From assembly GCF_000245015.1 (NCBI RefSeq), contig NZ_JH600070.1, forward strand, positions 248,001-312,000: a stretch of 64,000 bases of DNA. Reading direction: 5' to 3'. A program made the position numbers and the translations under genes. Numbering within the stretch: position 1 is the first letter of the stretch; each line of letters begins with the position of its first letter. This document shows, in pieces, positions 17,523-49,789 of this stretch. Under the pieces are notes generated by a model, which saw nothing but the letters and a program-made list of their open reading frames with translations, was not told the DNA's origin and did no database searches. The DNA comes from Beggiatoa alba B18LD (GTDB taxonomy: Bacteria > Pseudomonadota > Gammaproteobacteria > Beggiatoales > Beggiatoaceae).

Positions 17523-20500
17523 ATGTCACGCGATAAGCAACCCAGATATGTGCCATTAAAATATATGTTAATGGGCTCTTTTCTCCTGTTAATTGTCCCC
17601 ATTTTAATATCCCTTTCTGTGTTTGATTATCTAAATGCAAAAAAAGATTTAGAAAAAGCCTATTTATTGCTACAAACGCAAACTGAAAGCAATATTGTTA
17701 ATGCCATTAACCTTGTCGATGCAGGACACAAAGTTTTAGAAAGTTTTTTAGAAAAAGAAATTGAACGTTTATTTCCTCAATTCTTAGCTGCTTACGAAGC
17801 GGCTGAACGTAATCCATTAAACATGAACCTGTCCGACTTAAAAAAACAATTGGGCGGAAAAATGGATTTATACATTATTAATCATCAAGGAGAAGTGAAA
17901 TATACGACTTATACTAAAGACTTAGGTCTAGATTTTAGAAAATTTCCTGATTTTTTCGAATTTTTAGATAATATTCGTCGTCATGGTGAAATTAAACATG
18001 GGCGTATCGCCGTAGAAGCCCGTACTGGTGCATTGCGTAAATTCTCCTACATGCCAACACCAGACCACCGCTATATTTTAGAAATGGGCATACAATCCAA
18101 TGAGTTTGAATCCCTAATGGGCGGGCTAGATTTACTTAAAATTGCCGAACGCTTAAAAAAACTGAATCCTTCCTTAAATGAAGTCAATATTTACAGTCAA
18201 CATGGGCATTTAATCAGTGACCCTTCCTATAAAATTGATAATGATAAAGTCACACTAATTCGTAGAATTTATATAGAAAAGAATACCTATCAAATTGATA
18301 AGCGCGATAAAGGGCAAATCATCCGTTATTTATTCGTTAACTTAAAAAACGAAAAAGGAGATAGCGTTTCAGACCCCAGTAAAGTAATTGAATTAATTTA
18401 TAATACTAAAATGATTGATGAAGGATTAAACCGTATTGCTGTGTTTCACCTATGGTTAGACTTTATTGCGGTTATTCTCTGCTTTTTATTCACGTTTATC
18501 ATTTCTGCATGGCTAACTCGCCCTATTCAAGACCTTGTGCATAGCGTTGATGTAATTGCCCAAGGTGATTTAGAACATCCTATTAATGTTAAAACTAATA
18601 ATGAATTAAATCTTTTAAAACAGAGCATTACTATCATGGTTGATAGTATGTCAACTTATATTAAACAGATTAAGTGGCAAAATGCCGAATTATTAAAATT
18701 AGATAAATTAAAAGATGATTTTCTCTCTAATACCTCGCATGAATTACGTACCCCGATTAATGGCATTATTGGAATCGCTGAATCTATGATTGATGGGGCA
18801 ACGGGTGATTTGCCACTAGAAGTTAAAAATAATCTCAGCATGATTGTTTTTAGTGGTCGCCGTTTAGCCAATTTAGTGAATGATATTTTAGATTTTTCTA
18901 AATTAAAGCATCAACATTTAGAATTACAGTTAAAACCAATAGAAATAAAAGTGGTAGTTGATGTTGTAGTGGCAATTTCACGCCCTTTAATTGGGCAGAA
19001 AAAAATTGAGTTAGTCAATCATATTAAGACTGATTTACCTGTATTAGCAGATGAAAATCGCCTACAGCAAATTTTATATAATTTAATTGGTAATGCGATT
19101 AAATTTACAGAAAGTGGCGTGATTGAGATAAATTGTCGTCCTGACGGTAAATTTTTAAAAATCATGATTTCTGATACAGGTATCGGCATTTCTAAGGAAA
19201 AATTGCAGAAAGTTTTTACCCCCTTTGAGCAAGCAGATGGGTCTATTTCTCGTGAATTTGGTGGAACTGGCTTAGGTCTTTCTATTACTAAACAACTGGT
19301 TGAATTGCATGGCGGGACAATTAAATTAGAATCTACGTTAAATATAGGTACTCGTGTCAGTTTTACTTTACCCCTGTCTCAAGAACCTGTAGAACAAAGT
19401 AGTCAAGGGTATTTAACACCGTTGATACAGCGTGAAAATTATAGAAATGCATTGCCTGCCTTATCGGCAAAACCATCTGTATTAACAGACAATCAAACTA
19501 CGACAGTATCGGCATCGACGAATACTTTTGTAGAAATACAGCAGGATGAAAAAACTGATCGTAAGAAAAGTTTGTCGATTTTAATCGTGGATGATGACCC
19601 CATTAATCTACAAGTTTTAGAGAATCAATTAAAATTAGAAAATTATGGGGTAACACGGGCAGCGAATGGAATGGCTGCATTAGATGCAATTAATAGCGGC
19701 ACATATTTCAATTTAATTCTGTTAGATATTATGATGCCTAGAATGTCGGGTTTTGAAGTGTGTCGAATTATTCGAGAAAAGTGGGGAGCTAATGAATTAC
19801 CGATTATTATGCTAACCGCTAAAAATCAGGTTTCTGACCTCGTAGATGGGTTACAAGCAGGCGCGAATGATTATTTAAGTAAGCCATTTTCTAAAAATGA
19901 GTTATTAACGCGCATAAAAATTCATATTCAATTATCCCGTGTCAGTATCGCTTATAGTAATTTTGTTCCTTTAGAATTTCTTAAGCTTTTGGAAAAAGAC
20001 AGTATTATTGATGTACGTTTAGGCGACCACGTGCAGAAATATATGGCAGTTTTATTTGCCGATATTCGTTCGTTTACAACCTTATCTGAAAGTATGACCC
20101 CGAAAGAAAATTTTGATTTTATTAATAATTATTTACGTCGTGTTAGTCCTGTTATTCGTGTACATCATGGTTTTATTGATAAATATATTGGTGATGCATT
20201 AATGGCTTTGTTTCCTGAAAAAGCGGACGATGCGGTGCAAGCAGCAATTGATATTCATCGTGAACTTGCTTTATTCAATGCAGCACGGGAAGCGCAACAG
20301 TTAGTCCCAATTAAAGTGGGTATTGGTCTGCATATTGGCACGTTAATGTTAGGGACGATAGGCGAAGAAAAACGGATGGAAGGCACGGTTATTTCTGATG
20401 CAGTTAATTTAGCCTCGCGGTTGGAGGGGTTAACGAAATTATATGGAACTTCTTTGTTAATCAGTGGTGAGCTGTTAGCGGAGTTAGAAGACCCAAGTCG

Positions 20501-20810
20501 TTATTATTTTCGGTTCTTAGGCAAGGTAAAAGTCAAGGGTAAAAATGCTCCCGTTTATATTTTTGAAATTTTGGACGCAGAACCCGAACAGATACGGCAA
20601 AGGAAGATTGCAACAGAGGCAATATTTAATCAGGCAATGGAGTTTTATTATGCAAAACAATTCCGTGTTGCTGCTAAGTTATTTCAGCAGGTATTGATTG
20701 AAATGACTGAGGATAGAGCCGCAGATTTTTATTTAAATCGTTGTCTTTATTATGCAGAGACGGGCGCACCGTTAGATTGGCAGGGGGTTGAGGCATTAAC
20801 AGAGAAATAG
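17523..20810 (+). CDS. Hybrid histidine kinase with receiver and nucleotide cyclase domains
   Basis: This 1095-residue membrane protein joins phosphorelay and cyclic-nucleotide signalling. It has a first membrane helix at 14-36, a periplasmic sensor of about 270 residues, a second helix near 310-331, HAMP, then a histidine kinase with phospho-acceptor H406 in SHELRTP, an N-box near 511-527 and G-boxes DTGIGIS and GGTGLGLS. A receiver follows with phospho-acceptor D735 and KPF near 786. The class III cyclase domain has metal ligands D847 (FADIR) and D891 (KYIGDALMA), adenine-selecting K887 and a Thr at the partner position, which favours cAMP. The tail (1030-1095) is TPR-like. Phosphorylation of the receiver probably tunes the cyclase. 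A 99-bp stretch around its 3' end recurs at 22488. Confidence 0.93.
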   Translation: MSRDKQPRYVPLKYMLMGSFLLLIVPILISLSVFDYLNAKKDLEKAYLLLQTQTESNIVNAINLVDAGHKVLESFLEKEIERLFPQFLAAYEAAERNPLNMNLSDLKKQLGGKMDLYIINHQGEVKYTTYTKDLGLDFRKFPDFFEFLDNIRRHGEIKHGRIAVEARTGALRKFSYMPTPDHRYILEMGIQSNEFESLMGGLDLLKIAERLKKLNPSLNEVNIYSQHGHLISDPSYKIDNDKVTLIRRIYIEKNTYQIDKRDKGQIIRYLFVNLKNEKGDSVSDPSKVIELIYNTKMIDEGLNRIAVFHLWLDFIAVILCFLFTFIISAWLTRPIQDLVHSVDVIAQGDLEHPINVKTNNELNLLKQSITIMVDSMSTYIKQIKWQNAELLKLDKLKDDFLSNTSHELRTPINGIIGIAESMIDGATGDLPLEVKNNLSMIVFSGRRLANLVNDILDFSKLKHQHLELQLKPIEIKVVVDVVVAISRPLIGQKKIELVNHIKTDLPVLADENRLQQILYNLIGNAIKFTESGVIEINCRPDGKFLKIMISDTGIGISKEKLQKVFTPFEQADGSISREFGGTGLGLSITKQLVELHGGTIKLESTLNIGTRVSFTLPLSQEPVEQSSQGYLTPLIQRENYRNALPALSAKPSVLTDNQTTTVSASTNTFVEIQQDEKTDRKKSLSILIVDDDPINLQVLENQLKLENYGVTRAANGMAALDAINSGTYFNLILLDIMMPRMSGFEVCRIIREKWGANELPIIMLTAKNQVSDLVDGLQAGANDYLSKPFSKNELLTRIKIHIQLSRVSIAYSNFVPLEFLKLLEKDSIIDVRLGDHVQKYMAVLFADIRSFTTLSESMTPKENFDFINNYLRRVSPVIRVHHGFIDKYIGDALMALFPEKADDAVQAAIDIHRELALFNAAREAQQLVPIKVGIGLHIGTLMLGTIGEEKRMEGTVISDAVNLASRLEGLTKLYGTSLLISGELLAELEDPSRYYFRFLGKVKVKGKNAPVYIFEILDAEPEQIRQRKIATEAIFNQAMEFYYAKQFRVAAKLFQQVLIEMTEDRAADFYLNRCLYYAETGAPLDWQGVEALTEK

Positions 20811-20849
20811 AAAAATAATTGATTTGATAGACAGAGGTGACTAGCGACA
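20751..20849 (+). repeat. 99-bp direct repeat, copy A (3' end of the kinase-cyclase gene)
   Basis: The last 19 codons, the stop and 39 bases downstream match 22488-22586 at about 91 of 99 positions with no gaps. Four of the five changed codons are synonymous. The two copies bracket the zinc-ribbon nuclease gene and a GTCTGAATCAG repeat. Just past the gene a small hairpin, GAGGTG/CACCTC at 20834-20863, may act as terminator. Confidence 0.88.
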
Positions 20850-20925
20850 TTTATTAACACCTCAAGTATTGCGAAAAAGAGTTTAAATAACCTGCGTTCG
20901 GCAAGTTTCTTTTAAAAAGACAATA

Positions 20926-21010
20926 TTGTCTGAATCAGGATTTAAAAGCATCATTTGCCTTAATTTTTGGTTTGAGGATTTTAAATCCTGTGAATCTTAA
21001 TTTAAACAGT
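20926..21010. repeat. GTCTGAATCAG palindromic repeat, degenerate copy 4
   Basis: The left end TTGTCTGAATCAGGATT is intact. The right end is eroded (TGAATCTTAATTTAAACAG). An outer module copy, CCTGCGTTCGGCAAGTTT, precedes it at 20890-20918. The rest of 21011-21255 shows nothing beyond AT-rich DNA that must include the promoter of the next gene. Confidence 0.7.
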
Positions 21011-21255
21011 TTTTAAATCTTATCAAGTAAATCAAAATTAAAACAAGAGGAAAAAAATAATGTATTCAATTAAAATAGCTGAAACTACTTTACACCTGAA
21101 ACTATAGCAACTTTCTGTTTTAGTTTTTTGAATCTCGCAAAACTGCGGGTTAAGTGCTTTTGTGCTTGATAAGTGGAACTTGCAAGGCATTCATTAGCAA
21201 GCACTGATTGATAAAACTTACTCTATATAAATTATTTCTCTTGGATATTTATCGT

Positions 21256-22434
21256 ATGGCTATTTTAAGATGCCCACACTGTCAATTTTTAAAAGAAGTC
21301 GCAAATACGTATCTTGGTAAGACTGCACCTTGTCCAAAGTGTAAAAAAGAAGCTAAAGTTGTTGATACAATTAAATTAGTAGAAACTGCAGTAAATCGTT
21401 TTTTAGAAGTGAGTCAAAAATATAAAGAGTTAAAGCAAAATAGTGATAATACTGAATTAAAACTAAAGAACCTTGTTGATAAATTAATTACACTGACGAA
21501 TGAAAAAAATGCTTTAAAAGCACAACTTGAAGAATTAAGTGAAAATAACTCCTCAATCACCCCCGCTAAAACAGATGCCCCCACTTTAAGCACTTCCTTA
21601 TTTAAAGAGTTTAATCAAAACAACACTACCACTAGCAAAGCAACAGAAACAATCATTGTTCCTGATGGTTATGTTTTTGAAAATCAATCTTATGCCGCTG
21701 AACTAAATAACTTTCAACCTGTGGTAAATTGGTTTAAAACTCGCAATATTCAAATTGAACCAAATGTACAAGCATCTGATATTCAAGGTTATTTTGATGA
21801 AGTTGCGGTGATGATTGGGGATAATTTAACCATTTTAGATAAATTGTTAGATGGCATTCGTTATCGACAGCGTAAAGGCTATGACCGATTCAAAATTGAA
21901 CTTAAAGAATATAATCAAGAAGATGAGAAGCTTATTAAGAAATTTTGTCAAACGGCTTATGAATTTGCGTTTTTCTCTCGCTATCAGTTTAACCGAGAAT
22001 TAAATAGTATTTCTCTAGTGTTAAATAATTCGCCACAAATCCAAAACTTCTTTAATGGGGATTGGTTAGAGTGGTATGTTTTTATGAAAGTTGCTTCGTT
22101 TTTGCTTGCTAATAAATATCCTTTTGCCTGTTTGCGTAGCTCTAAAATTGTTTCTGCAACTACCAATCAGCAGCATGAAATTGATATTTTTTTCTTAATT
22201 AATGGCAATCAGCCATTATGGATTGAGTGCAAATCGGGCGAGTTTCGTGATTCAATTAATAAATACCAAGAATTGCGTAAGAAATTGAACATTAATCCTG
22301 ATTATTCGTTGTTATTAGTTTCTGGTTTGGAAAATGAAAAAGTGGATAATTTTAGCCGCATGTTCAAAATTCGGATTATGAATGAGAAAAAATTATTGCC
22401 ATATTTAGCGGGATTATTTCAAGCAAAAAAATAA
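21256..22434 (+). CDS. Zinc-ribbon, coiled-coil, PD-(D/E)XK nuclease-like protein
   Basis: I start this gene at the ATG at 21256, because upstream only a TTG is available and the zinc ribbon begins at once. The 392-residue protein has a four-cysteine ribbon (C6, C9, C26, C29), a Lys/Glu-rich coiled coil at about 40-105, a linker, a central domain and a C-terminal nuclease-like core. The core has E272, D310 in HEIDIFF, and E324-x-K326 in IECKSG, the full PD-(D/E)XK pattern as in DUF1887/Card1-type nucleases. I do not recognise the whole architecture. It is AT-rich, has no operon partner and lies between two 99-bp direct repeats, so horizontal gain is likely. A defence role is possible but unproven. 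Confidence 0.75.
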   Translation: MAILRCPHCQFLKEVANTYLGKTAPCPKCKKEAKVVDTIKLVETAVNRFLEVSQKYKELKQNSDNTELKLKNLVDKLITLTNEKNALKAQLEELSENNSSITPAKTDAPTLSTSLFKEFNQNNTTTSKATETIIVPDGYVFENQSYAAELNNFQPVVNWFKTRNIQIEPNVQASDIQGYFDEVAVMIGDNLTILDKLLDGIRYRQRKGYDRFKIELKEYNQEDEKLIKKFCQTAYEFAFFSRYQFNRELNSISLVLNNSPQIQNFFNGDWLEWYVFMKVASFLLANKYPFACLRSSKIVSATTNQQHEIDIFFLINGNQPLWIECKSGEFRDSINKYQELRKKLNINPDYSLLLVSGLENEKVDNFSRMFKIRIMNEKKLLPYLAGLFQAKK

Positions 22435-22487
22435 ATTGATAATTAGTTATTTTAGAAATCTGTTAGGTTTTAATTTAATTGCCTAGT

Positions 22488-22586
22488 TATGCTGAAACGG
22501 GAATGCCGTTAGATTGGCAGGGGGTTGAGGCATTAACGGAGAAATAGAAAAGTAATTGATTTGATAGACAGAGGTGACTAGCGACA
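22488..22586 (+). repeat. 99-bp direct repeat, copy B (remnant of a cyclase-kinase 3' end)
   Basis: This stretch still encodes the terminal YAETGMPLDWQGVEALTEK of the kinase-cyclase gene plus its stop, with mostly synonymous differences from copy A. Only this tail remains; the upstream sequence is unrelated. It is therefore a gene fragment, left either by deletion of a paralogue or by an integration event that duplicated the gene end. Confidence 0.88.
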
Positions 22587-22602
22587 ATTATCAGCCTCTG
22601 TC
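22567..22602. terminator. Stem-loop between copy B and the DUF3096 gene
   Basis: GACAGAGGTGA pairs with TCAGCCTCTGTC with one bulge around a 13-base loop. It lies between a plus-strand gene remnant and the end of a minus-strand gene, so it could end transcription from both sides. It lacks a strong T-run. Confidence 0.55.
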
Positions 22603-22612
22603 AGGCATTGAT

Positions 22613-22747
22613 TTATCTTAAACCAATTAAGCCAATCACGCCCACGATAATTAGATAAAGCGCGACGACATAATTTAAAAGTTTGGGTTGTAGAAGAATT
22701 AAAATGCCTGCAACCAGTGAAATTACTGCATTGATATGAATGCCCAT
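22613..22747 (-). CDS. DUF3096-like small membrane protein, 44 residues
   Basis: This short ORF encodes MGIHINAVISLVAGILILL and then QPKLLNYVVALYLIIVGVIG, a two-helix hairpin with a QPK turn. That is the pattern of the DUF3096 family, whose function is unknown. A strong ribosome binding site, AGGAAGG, sits about eight bases before the ATG, which supports real translation. The gene stands alone, read toward the stem-loop at 22567. Confidence 0.8.
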   Translation of the reverse strand: MGIHINAVISLVAGILILLQPKLLNYVVALYLIIVGVIGLIGLR

Positions 22748-22873
22748 CACGTTATTCCTTCCTAGGTCATTGTTTCTTTTTCTGAAGGTCTTTTAATGAT
22801 TCATTATAAAGAGCTTCAGTGCCTACCATTACTCATCTTGAGTATGTGTTATAGCAAACGAATTATAAAAAGA

Positions 22874-23344
22874 TTAAATAGAATTCAATAAAAAGAGCGC
22901 ATCAATAGAACAATATTGTTGTTTGCGGAGAGTCTTAGCCTGAGCCCATTTATGCTCGATAGGATTTAAATCAGGCGAATAAGGAGGTAAATATTCCAAG
23001 AGATGCCCAGCATCTAAAATAGCCTGCTGAATATCACTACGTTTATGAAAAGTGGCGTTATCCATGACAATGACAGAGTTCTGAGGGAGTTTAGGGAGTA
23101 ACTCTTGGGTTATCCAAGCAAAAAAGACATCAGAATTAACCGCCCCAGAAACTAAAGAGACCGTTAGTAAACAAAAATTGAGCAAAGCCCCGATGACATT
23201 AGTGCGTCCCTTTGCGTGCCAGTCTTGCGTACCAGAGCAACGTTTGCCGATAGGGGCATAACCAAAACGACGTGGCATATCATGAGCAAAACCACTTTCA
23301 TCGATAAAAACAATTTGCCTATCAGATTGTTTATAACGATTCAT
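22874..23344 (-). CDS. IS630 transposase, C-terminal DDE part
   Basis: This frame holds the catalytic domain: FIDESGFAHDMPRR contains the first Asp, IVMDNATFHK the second and PYSPDLNPIEHKW the Glu, so the DDE triad is complete. The frame stays open upstream of its first ATG as far as the A9 run at 23397-23405. Sense translation there gives KKNLKHPKANPEAR, the normal IS630 linker, so the two frames form one protein when the frame changes at that run. The ATG used in this range is probably not the natural start. Confidence 0.88.
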   Translation of the reverse strand: MNRYKQSDRQIVFIDESGFAHDMPRRFGYAPIGKRCSGTQDWHAKGRTNVIGALLNFCLLTVSLVSGAVNSDVFFAWITQELLPKLPQNSVIVMDNATFHKRSDIQQAILDAGHLLEYLPPYSPDLNPIEHKWAQAKTLRKQQYCSIDALFLLNSI

Positions 23345-23696
23345 TTTGTCTTGGAAGACTTGCCGTGCTTCGGGGTTGGCTTTGGGATGTTTGAGGTTTT
23401 TTTTTACGGCTAATTCCTAGACGTTTTAACGCTTGGCGAATCCCCCCTTCAGTTATTCCAAAACGGGCTGCACGTTCGTAATGGTAAGCATCGGGATATA
23501 ACACAACATCTTGTTTTAGAGCTTCCATATCTATTTTGCTTGGTTTGTTACGTGTCCGTTTGGCTTCTAAGACTTTACTCCATCTCACTACACTTGCGAT
23601 GGCTATTTGAAAGCGTTTTGCTACCGCTGCTAGGGTGAGATTTTCTTCTTGTTTCACTTTTAATACTTTACAACGGAAATCTGTTGAATAGGTCAT
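23331..23696 (-). CDS. IS630 transposase, N-terminal HTH part
   Basis: The 121-residue frame begins MTYSTDFRCKVLKV and contains the helix-turn-helix that binds the terminal repeats (LAAVAKRFQIAIASVVRWSK) plus the ERAARFGITEGGIRQALKRLGISRKK segment. It runs out of frame at a run of nine adenines (minus strand) after the SR of GISR. Eight adenines would fuse it to the DDE frame, so ribosomal frameshifting or transcriptional slippage probably makes the full transposase. Its tail after KKKP is frame-shifted sequence. Confidence 0.85.
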   Translation of the reverse strand: MTYSTDFRCKVLKVKQEENLTLAAVAKRFQIAIASVVRWSKVLEAKRTRNKPSKIDMEALKQDVVLYPDAYHYERAARFGITEGGIRQALKRLGISRKKKPQTSQSQPRSTASLPRQNESL

Positions 23697-23762
23697 TTTC
23701 TATACTCTTTTTGTGATTCGCTTGCTATATAGAACCGATTTGAAATGTTTAAAAAAAAGCGA

Positions 23763-24291
23763 TTCGTTTTATCATGAGTCTGATAAAACACAGTTTCAGT
23801 TTAGCATTAGCATTCTCAAGAGTCCGTTCAAAGTTCTTAACTAAGGACTTACATCGCTCAACCCAAGCATTAGAACGTTCTACTACCCATCTTGCTTTAA
23901 CAGGTACAAAGCCTGTCTTACCTTGTGCTAACTTTCTTGCTTATTGGGCTTGGGAGATAACTCAAACTGGATTTTACTCAGAATATCAGGATAAATTTTT
24001 CTAACGCTTCCTGAATACGCACAGGATGATAGCCATTATCCAAGAGAATTGTCGTTTTAGGCATCTCTAAAGGTTTGTTCCTGAAGTAATCGATATTCTC
24101 CTTGAACAGCTCAATCAATCCTAGGTCATCATTGATATTGGCTTTTGTACAGCGTGTAAACAAGGGCAAGCCTAAACTATCAACGGCTAAGTGTCTTTTA
24201 ATTCCATTGGTAGCTTTGTAAAAGCAGAAGCCTTTACTTTGACGACTCGCCAGACAAGTATTTTTCACCGCTTGGGAATCTACTATGATTA
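23763..24291 (-). pseudogene. IS5-family transposase, C-terminal part with frameshifts
   Basis: Read across frames, this is the catalytic portion: IIVDSQAVKNT, GIKRHLAVDSLGLP, ILLDNGYHP (second Asp), then KIYPDILSKIQFELSPKP and finally KARWVVERSNAWVERCK with the catalytic Glu, ending MIKRIAFF. Besides the A8 slip at 24309-24316, the frame changes near 23990 (after ALEK) and again near 23945 (before RKLAQGK). Those two extra breaks mark the copy as inactive. Confidence 0.8.
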
Positions 24292-24618
24292 GGCTTGTAT
24301 ATTGAGCGTTTTTTTTGATTGCGTGCGGGCATTTTCATGTAAGCCTATCATCAGTTTATCGATAACTCCCGAAGCCCGCCATTGTTTATAATGCCAATAA
24401 ACCGTTGAATAGGGAGGGAAGTCTTTAGGAAGGTCGCCCCAATGGCAGCCATTTTTGAGCTGATAAAGCATTGCATCAAATAGCAGGCGATAGCCCCATT
24501 TATGCGGACAGGTAAGCTTTTTTTTGGGCAATAACGCATTTAAGAGGGGTTCAACCACTGCCCATTCTGCATCTGTTAGGCTACTTGTGTAAGGACTCTT
24601 TTTGTTTTGTTTTTTCAT
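24289..24618 (-). CDS. IS5-family transposase, N-terminal part (DUF4096-like)
   Basis: The 109-residue frame encodes the N-terminal transposase domain, with SLTDAEWAVVEPLL, the GCHWGDLPKDFPPYSTVYWHYKQW motif and VIDKLM. It runs out of frame at eight adenines (A AAA AAA C on the minus strand), a typical minus-one slippery site in this IS group. A minus-one shift restores KKNAQYTSLIIVDSQAVK of the next part. The N-terminal piece itself is intact. Confidence 0.82.
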   Translation of the reverse strand: MKKQNKKSPYTSSLTDAEWAVVEPLLNALLPKKKLTCPHKWGYRLLFDAMLYQLKNGCHWGDLPKDFPPYSTVYWHYKQWRASGVIDKLMIGLHENARTQSKKTLNIQA

Positions 24619-24653
24619 CTTTTACATTTTATCTTAGACTTCAAATAGGTTCT

Positions 24654-25366
24654 ATAACGATTACATCATTTGGAAAAAATAGCAATATTGGGAAAAAATT
24701 TGAAATTTATGCAGTTATTAGTAATCTGTGCAAAAGTTGCAGAAGAATTGAAGGAAACAGGGGTTTATTGGCTTATTATGGCAAGTTTTTTCTGAGTATT
24801 TTTGTCGGTTACTAATTATTTTTTAACATAGATTATAGGGCTAGCATTTTTTTTAGCGATATAGAAAAAGTTTTCTATTTAAGCTGGCTTAAAAAGTATA
24901 AAATAGAAAACGCGGCGTAAATAAGCTGATAAGTGTTAGGCTTACGGAGTTACTGAGATTTAGTATTGATGGGGAGTAATATTTTTAGCAGTGTGATTTA
25001 TTGGTATGATTACCTATAGATGCCGTAAAATAATGCGACACACAAATGCGCGTTGTCATACCGCTGTTGCCATAAGCGATGGTTTGGAGAAAACGGATAT
25101 TTAGGTAATCTCAAAGGCTAGGGATAGACTTTGAGGGTGGTGTTTTATCATGCCTTTAATGGATGCAACTGTAAGGTGGGTTATTTTAAATGAATGACCT
25201 ACTTTCCCATGAAAAGATTAACATTTTTATTTTTAGTTAAAAACCACTGATAACACGAATCATCATTTTTTAATGGCATCCACTTTTTTGTAAATTGAGG
25301 GTTGTTTCCAGATAAAAAAGGGTTGGTGTTATTAATTATTTTTTATTTTGCTACAAGGAGACATTT
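24654..25366. other. Gene-free region upstream of ccoN
   Basis: This 713-base AT-rich stretch has no convincing gene. A 28-codon ORF near 24710 is too short and lacks support. It holds a candidate structured segment at 25008-25135 and must contain the promoter of the cbb3 operon. I looked for an FNR/ANR site (TTGAT-N4-ATCAA) and found none with the right spacing. Confidence 0.6.
25008..25135 (+). ncRNA. Candidate structured RNA or leader upstream of ccoN
   Basis: The segment 25008-25026 (GATTACCTATAGATGCCGT) can pair with 25093-25110 (ACGGATATTTAGGTAATC), which closes a 66-base internal region. A second perfect stem follows at once, CTCAAAG (25110-25116) with CTTTGAG (25129-25135). No RNA family was recognised and the strand is assumed from the downstream operon. 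It may instead be a remnant of a short inverted-repeat element. Confidence 0.35.
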
Positions 25367-44113: not shown

Positions 44114-44231
44114 GTCATGAATCTCGACGAATATAAACGATTCGTTTTTTTAATGGTTTCAATAAATATATTATATATTCAAATAGTTATGCTTTGATGA
44201 TTATATCAAGTTTGGAGAGCAAACGTAGGAT

Positions 44232-44548
44232 AACCTGAGTTCGGCGAGTTTTATAAAATAAAACAGAGACCTGCTAGGTTTTTAAAATCTAGCAGGTCTG
44301 TCAGAACACGCGAAAAGGGTTGACCAGACAAGATTAAAATATTGTCTGAATCAGGATTTTCAGAATTAGCAGAATTAACAGAATTTAAAACCCTCAAACC
44401 AAAAAGTCAGGTGAATGACGCTTTTTAATCCTGCTAATCCTGAAAATCCTGTGAATCCTGATTCAGACAAGCTGTTGTCTTTTTTAAAAAACTCGCAGAA
44501 CTCAGGTTAAAATAAAAACCTGCTAGGTTTTTAAAACCTAGCAGGTTT
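44232..44548. repeat. Composite repeat cluster: outer module, hairpin, palindrome, outer module, hairpin
   Basis: In order: forward outer module CCTGAGTTCGGCGAGTTTT (44232), GACCTGCTAGG hairpin (44268-44298), GTCTGAATCAG palindrome (44342-44470), reverse outer module AACTCGCAGAACTCAGGTT (about 44489-44509) and a second CTAG hairpin (44517-44547). The two outer modules form a long inverted repeat. It fills most of the gap 44114-44661. Confidence 0.85.
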
Positions 44549-49512: not shown

Positions 49513-49538
49513 TTGTCTGAATCAGGATTAGCAGGATT
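49513..49538. repeat. Truncated GTCTGAATCAG repeat
   Basis: TTGTCTGAATCAGGATTAG and the adjacent CAGGATTAA form only the left end of the element. The sequence is interrupted directly by the outer module of the composite at 49539. Confidence 0.65.
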
Positions 49539-49789
49539 AACCTGAGTTCGGCGAGTTTTATAAAATAAAACAGAGACCTGCTAGGTTTTTAAAACCTAGC
49601 AGGTCTTTTTTTGTCTGAATCAGAATTCACAGAATTTTCAGAATTAGCAGAATTAAAAACAATTAAAAACATAATTTTTTATTCTTTTAATTTTCTTGTC
49701 TTTTTAATTCTGAAAATTCTGTTAATTCTGAAAATTCTGATTCAGACAAGCTGTTGTCTTTTCAAAAGAAACTCGCCGAACTCAGGTTA
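49539..49789. repeat. Complete composite repeat with inverted outer ends
   Basis: This 251-bp element reads: forward AACCTGAGTTCGGCGAGTTT at 49539, GACCTGCTAGG hairpin at 49575-49605, GTCTGAATCAG palindrome at 49611-49749, and reverse AAACTCGCCGAACTCAGGTT ending at 49789. The outer 20 bp are perfect inverted repeats. It is the clearest intact composite in the window. The rest of 49790-49883 upstream of bfr shows a ribosome binding site and no other recognised feature. Confidence 0.85.

Follow-up and report, generated by a model that had tools for sequence, protein, structure and literature searches.

How did the 3' end of a signaling gene come to stand on both sides of a nuclease gene in Beggiatoa alba B18LD? 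In the window analyzed here (64,000 nucleotides of contig NZ_JH600070.1, with zero N), the last codons of a kinase–cyclase gene are found twice in direct orientation, and 1.63 kb of DNA lies between the two copies. The original prediction, made from the letters alone, read this arrangement either as an integration or as the deletion of a tandem paralogue. The features of the locus are the following:

17523–20810, forward strand: hybrid histidine kinase/response regulator/nucleotide cyclase gene (open reading frame list; Pfam HAMP, HisKA, HATPase_c, Response_reg, and Guanylate_cyc)
20750–20854, forward strand: repeat copy A, consisting of the last 19 codons of the kinase gene, its stop codon, and 44 nt downstream
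20885–20996, no strand assigned: dispersed repeat of inverted symmetry, lying within the insert
21256–22434, forward strand: stand-alone nuclease gene, 392 amino acids from the ATG at 21256, in a frame open from the TTG at 21208 (open reading frame list, Pfam, PADLOC, PDB, and alignment)
22487–22591, forward strand: repeat copy B, a truncated kinase 3' end with downstream DNA, its frame open for 22 amino acids only
22567–22602, forward strand: hairpin (-14.9 kcal/mol) across the right edge of copy B
22613–22747, reverse strand: small DUF3096 gene (44 amino acids), convergent with the kinase gene and linked to ccoN here and in the congener

The two copies had been placed at 20751–20849 and 22488–22586, as 99-bp repeats. 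These positions are correct, with 8 mismatches in the 99-bp part, and ungapped extension brought the copies to 105 bp, with 9 mismatches, no gaps, 91.4% identity, and a spacing of 1737. Chance is ruled out as the source of this similarity by self-BLAST (E 8e-35), and the identical blocks inside the repeat measure 32, 13, and 34 nt. The edges of both copies are sharp, since gapped extension past them, in search of more degraded kinase sequence, did no better than shuffled sequences (55 of 300 shuffles were as good at the right edge, and 41 of 300 at the left).

The base rate of such pairs was estimated in the window and in 200 kb each of its own genome (G000) and of the congener (G001), for direct pairs of 60–400 bp, 0.3–8 kb apart, and at least 80% identical. 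Twenty pairs fell within these limits (three in the window, eight in G000, and nine in G001), and only two of them, A/B and one G001 pair, had a copy over the 3' end of an open reading frame of at least 150 amino acids. The four G000 pairs inspected, out of the eight, were all many-copy repeats, each matching 31 to 62 times in the window and the 200 kb of G000 together. Further direct repeats are present in the window at 1654–1850 and 1888–2084 (81% identical), and at 44227–44299 and 49533–49606 (97% identical). As a possible precedent, we considered a PhoD-like gene (recognized by eye) that appears to have a 5'-truncated copy in tandem, at G000 449458–453629 (L182 9458–13629); its copies are 99.95% identical over 2036 bp with 100 N between them, and it was discarded as a probable contig-end overlap at a scaffold gap.

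A relative with one gene end and without the insert had been named as the outcome that would support integration, and this is what the only congener compared shows (1 of 1): G001 has a single full kinase gene with a single end, and neither the insert nor an adjoining second kinase. This genome is colinear with the window from 12577 up to the kinase stop codon, and then diverges. An ancestral spacer lacking the repeats, which had been given as the finding contrary to the prediction, was not observed, as the G001 match ends at that stop codon. The empty site is not directly visible in G001 because both flanks are rearranged there: some 50 kb separates the kinase gene from the DUF3096–cco block, the two being inverted, and genes past both ends match elsewhere in G000. 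When the G001 neighbors of both ends were searched in G000, the matches were at other places, so the partner junction is unreadable. A search for a relic of the kinase end in 75 kb of G001, including the DUF3096–cco block, returned just the kinase end itself and two weak matches of 24–25 bp.

The closest kinase loci are those of Thiomargarita (two), Thioploca, Candidatus Parabeggiatoa, a gammaproteobacterium, and a record labelled Dichelobacter nodosus, which places the genome within the Beggiatoaceae or close to them. Gene ends were read in 18 of the 80 kinase loci listed. In six further kinase loci (L009–L014, among the 80 matches listed), neither a nuclease nor a DUF3096 match was present in the DNA inspected (0 of 6 for each). 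The kinase–nuclease arrangement was not found in G001, in these six loci, or beside the nuclease in three genomes of other genera (G015, G019, and G024, the copy of the last being at a contig end).

The insert consists of the dispersed repeat and the nuclease gene, which is its only open reading frame of at least 80 amino acids. It is AT-richer (GC 0.28–0.33) than the kinase end (0.34–0.42). No integrase, transposase, or site-specific recombinase gene was detected among its open reading frames of at least 80 amino acids, and the nuclease matches no integrase family in Pfam. Terminal inverted repeats bracketing the insert were also not found, as none of the 14 inverted pairs of at least 20 nt listed between 18000 and 26000 has arms at both edges. 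Two Rfam matches under the gathering scores were judged to be chance. The promoter scan gave seven promoter-like sites (10.4 expected) and the terminator scan one terminator-like site (1.2 expected), located within the nuclease gene.

The dispersed repeat has at least 45 matches in its own genome, this one counted, and three in the congener, at a threshold of E 1e-6, where no more than 35 first-look candidates were scored in any one genome. Under these limits it had no match in 23 other genomes, and was found in two of the 25 genomes only, G000 and G001. Because of this distribution, the segment either went through a genome of this genus or acquired the repeat after its arrival. Another repeat family is represented by an intergenic stretch of G000 (L182 9117–9606), which matches G000 at 43 further places and G001 at one. 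This single match in G001 overlaps one of the spacer repeat, and the two families may be related. In the whole of G000, one match to a Y1 transposase was observed (PF01797, 33.5 bits).

The nuclease has CxxC pairs at its N-terminus, zinc-ribbon-like by eye, and a Card1/Can2-like PD-(D/E)XK domain at its C-terminus. In the PDB, this domain matches Can2 and DUF1887 proteins with E values from 1.8e-5 to 0.003, and two extra rows, with E values of 0.13 and 0.87, are probably chance. The match to PF09002 (Card1_endonuc) is weak, with 21.8 bits, below the Pfam cut-off of 26.4. Residues E308, D310, E324, and K326, which we take to be the catalytic residues of a PD-(D/E)XK nuclease, do not vary among the rows that cover them (19 of 19) in a 20-row alignment. 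Judged by its sequence, the protein appears to carry the PD-(D/E)XK motif of the Card1/Can2 nucleases. The PADLOC CARF-nuclease and Csx1 profiles match it from residue 129 at the earliest, while Pfam and the DUF1887/Can2 PDB chains do so from residue 259 onward only.

Matches to this nuclease are present in 30 of the 42 family genomes, its own counted, and in G000 the insert's is the single match at E 1e-10. A tree was built with one row each from 20 of the 30 genomes with a match, G019 being represented by its first piece only. The nuclease of the window groups 100/100 with those of G015, G019, and G024, each from another genus, and apart from that of the congener, which groups 100/100 with the nuclease of G046; the forks joining such groups are weak. 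The stretches around the G001 nuclease correspond to three separate places in G000. Transfer or differential loss would explain this distribution, and transfer appears to be the simpler. In G019, the homologue is split around a 343-amino-acid open reading frame, transposase-like by eye (L100 9020–11253), and its two pieces overlap at query residues 219–243.

We favor, with a probability of about 0.5, the view that recombination at the kinase 3' end added the 1.63-kb segment between the kinase–cyclase gene and the convergent DUF3096 gene. Of this account, the repeats with their edges, the absence of the insert from the congener, and the affinity of the nuclease to those of other genera are observed. 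The segment would be composed of a dispersed repeat of this genus and a horizontally acquired stand-alone PD-(D/E)XK nuclease gene, and the incoming DNA most likely bore a related kinase end. Homology may have guided the joining on one side, with an illegitimate junction on the other; alternatively, a circle may have entered by a single crossover. The kinase gene would have been kept whole, with copy A as its end, and copy B, beside the old downstream DNA, would be the native end, now displaced. Mobility genes are absent from the insert itself; it could be excised by recombination between A and B, which would leave the kinase gene whole, and the 32- and 34-nt stretches of identity might be enough for RecA to do so. 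Of the two alternatives in the original prediction, integration is thus the one favored, given the single end, the lack of insert, and the lack of a second kinase in G001, together with a nuclease that is not of the congener's type, and deletion is less favored. An alternative 3' end carried by the incoming element, as had been proposed, is possible, although the differences between A and B do not prove two functional alleles.

The downstream side of the locus gives an indication of which copy is the older. After copy B, the order is the DUF3096 gene, two insertion sequences, and ccoN. The hairpin at 22567–22602 is built from bases lying inside and outside copy B at its right edge, which argues that B and its right flank are an old continuous stretch. 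When the 20 nt outside the repeat were shuffled, an equally stable hairpin was obtained in 22 of 1000 cases for B and in 174 of 1000 for A, in one modest test devised after the hairpin was seen. The terminator scan, which required a short loop and a T run, listed nothing at A or B, and the hairpin fits no standard terminator pattern; it is possibly the terminator that formerly separated the kinase gene from the convergent DUF3096 gene. These data suggest that copy B, with its downstream DNA, would be the native gene end. The two insertion sequences, at 22850–23730 and 23728–24656, lie side by side, and the frames of each are in two pieces. One is of the IS630 type by Pfam; the other is presumably IS5-like, and this element has five further near full-length copies at 99–100% identity in G000.

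The main rival to addition by recombination, although a somewhat unlikely one, is an old local duplication, in which the kinase end and its flank were duplicated in place, through a staggered break that was filled in or a tandem duplication that received captured DNA, after which B drifted as non-coding DNA and A stayed under selection. Five codons differ between A and B, four of them synonymously, as had been stated, the fifth being Ala in A and Met in B. This predominance of synonymous changes had been taken to fit the end of a once-functional homologous gene, and here the original prediction is weak. A random single change is synonymous with a probability of about 0.2, and a transition with about 0.34; with G001 as outgroup, three of the seven coding differences are derived in A, three in B, and one is unassignable. 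Derived changes are thus present in both copies, and their number is too small to tell two functional alleles from an old duplication in place. Two of the synonymous changes occurred on the side of the live gene, where such changes are to be expected, so B need never have been under selection. A and B are also equally distant from G001 (14/60 each), as a duplication after the split of the two species would give. Differences are present at 2 of 44 non-coding and 7 of 61 coding positions, with no sign of constraint on B, and one lineage suffices for the whole history. On the other hand, the captured DNA would have had to land exactly on the duplication junction or to share a single break-repair event with it, and 105 bp would probably be long for a break-repair duplication.

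Some other measures of divergence were set aside. A mosaic test, which asked whether the differences cluster toward the left end of the repeat, gave p 0.024 by base, but 0.71 with four adjacent changes taken as one event, and a Fisher value of 0.002 for the same clustering used a boundary picked after looking. Dating by dS was too noisy (0.54 for A and B on 19 codons; 1.47 for the kinase of G000 and G001), and the divergence along the kinase gene relative to G001 gave no usable boundary.

Less probable is the remnant of a deleted tandem kinase paralogue, the nuclease gene having once stood between two kinase genes. Copy B does have the form of a 5'-truncated gene end in the right orientation, and in L012 a second stretch matching the cyclase part of the kinase (48% identity) lies 4 kb downstream, indicating that a second cyclase-like gene is possible at that distance. 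But no second kinase adjoins that of G001, a second match is absent in the other five of the six loci, and the closest relative of the kinase tail in G000 besides copy B is 46% identical and 1.1 Mb away. This route also needs more steps. Integration at the kinase 3' end by a site-specific recombinase, acting in trans or since lost, would make A and B the two attachment-site copies; this agrees with the geometry, in which an intact gene 3' end has direct repeats at both edges of the insert. We regard it as improbable, given an insert with no recombinase gene and a nuclease that, besides matching no integrase family, had no match in plasmids or phages by tblastn and none confirmed in the viral collection, in one scan that reaches close relatives only. 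It is highly doubtful that a passive defense-gene cassette uses the kinase 3' end as its docking site. In such a scheme, a stand-alone Card1-like nuclease would move among sulfur bacteria together with a gene end borrowed from a host, and this end would supply the homology for entry and exit through RecA, with no mobility gene.

If addition by recombination is correct, the locus shows how a single defense-like gene can join a resident gene without mobility genes. Taken alone, it is the kind of scar that ordinary plasticity leaves in a genome rich in repeats and rearrangements; if strains with the empty site and with the donor site existed, the route of capture would be shown. Its nuclease resembles Card1/Can2 (DUF1887) in the C-terminal domain, and differs from them in the N-terminal CxxC pairs and in having Pfam and PDB matches confined to the C-terminal domain, with no CARF sensor domain detected in these matches. 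Genomic islands integrate at gene 3' ends via tyrosine recombinases, in such a way that the direct repeats contain the gene end and the gene stays whole. The present locus is like them in its direct repeats, which include the gene 3' end, and in the kinase gene kept whole, but its insert has a single gene and no recombinase, and its copies differ at 9 of 105 positions.

A closer resemblance may be sought in strain-variable segments, of which, in the part of the study considered here, 10–18% are flanked by direct repeats, with 66–94% of the repeats under 30 bp, the reported recombination threshold in Escherichia coli; homology-assisted illegitimate recombination is proposed there for part of the loci studied (PMC2884548). 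With such segments, as described in that part, the present locus shares a gene-sized segment absent in a relative (the kinase end of G001 has no insert, in 1 of 1 congener, with the downstream DNA rearranged), repeats at both edges, and no mobility gene; it differs in a repeat of 105 bp that is 9% diverged, and in a comparison made between species and not between strains. Within the genus, the portion consulted of a report on two B. leptomitoformis strains gives 16 long inserts by which they differ, 14 of them transposons (PMC7356093). Set beside these systems, the locus looks like a gene-capture scar of a known sort and not a new system.
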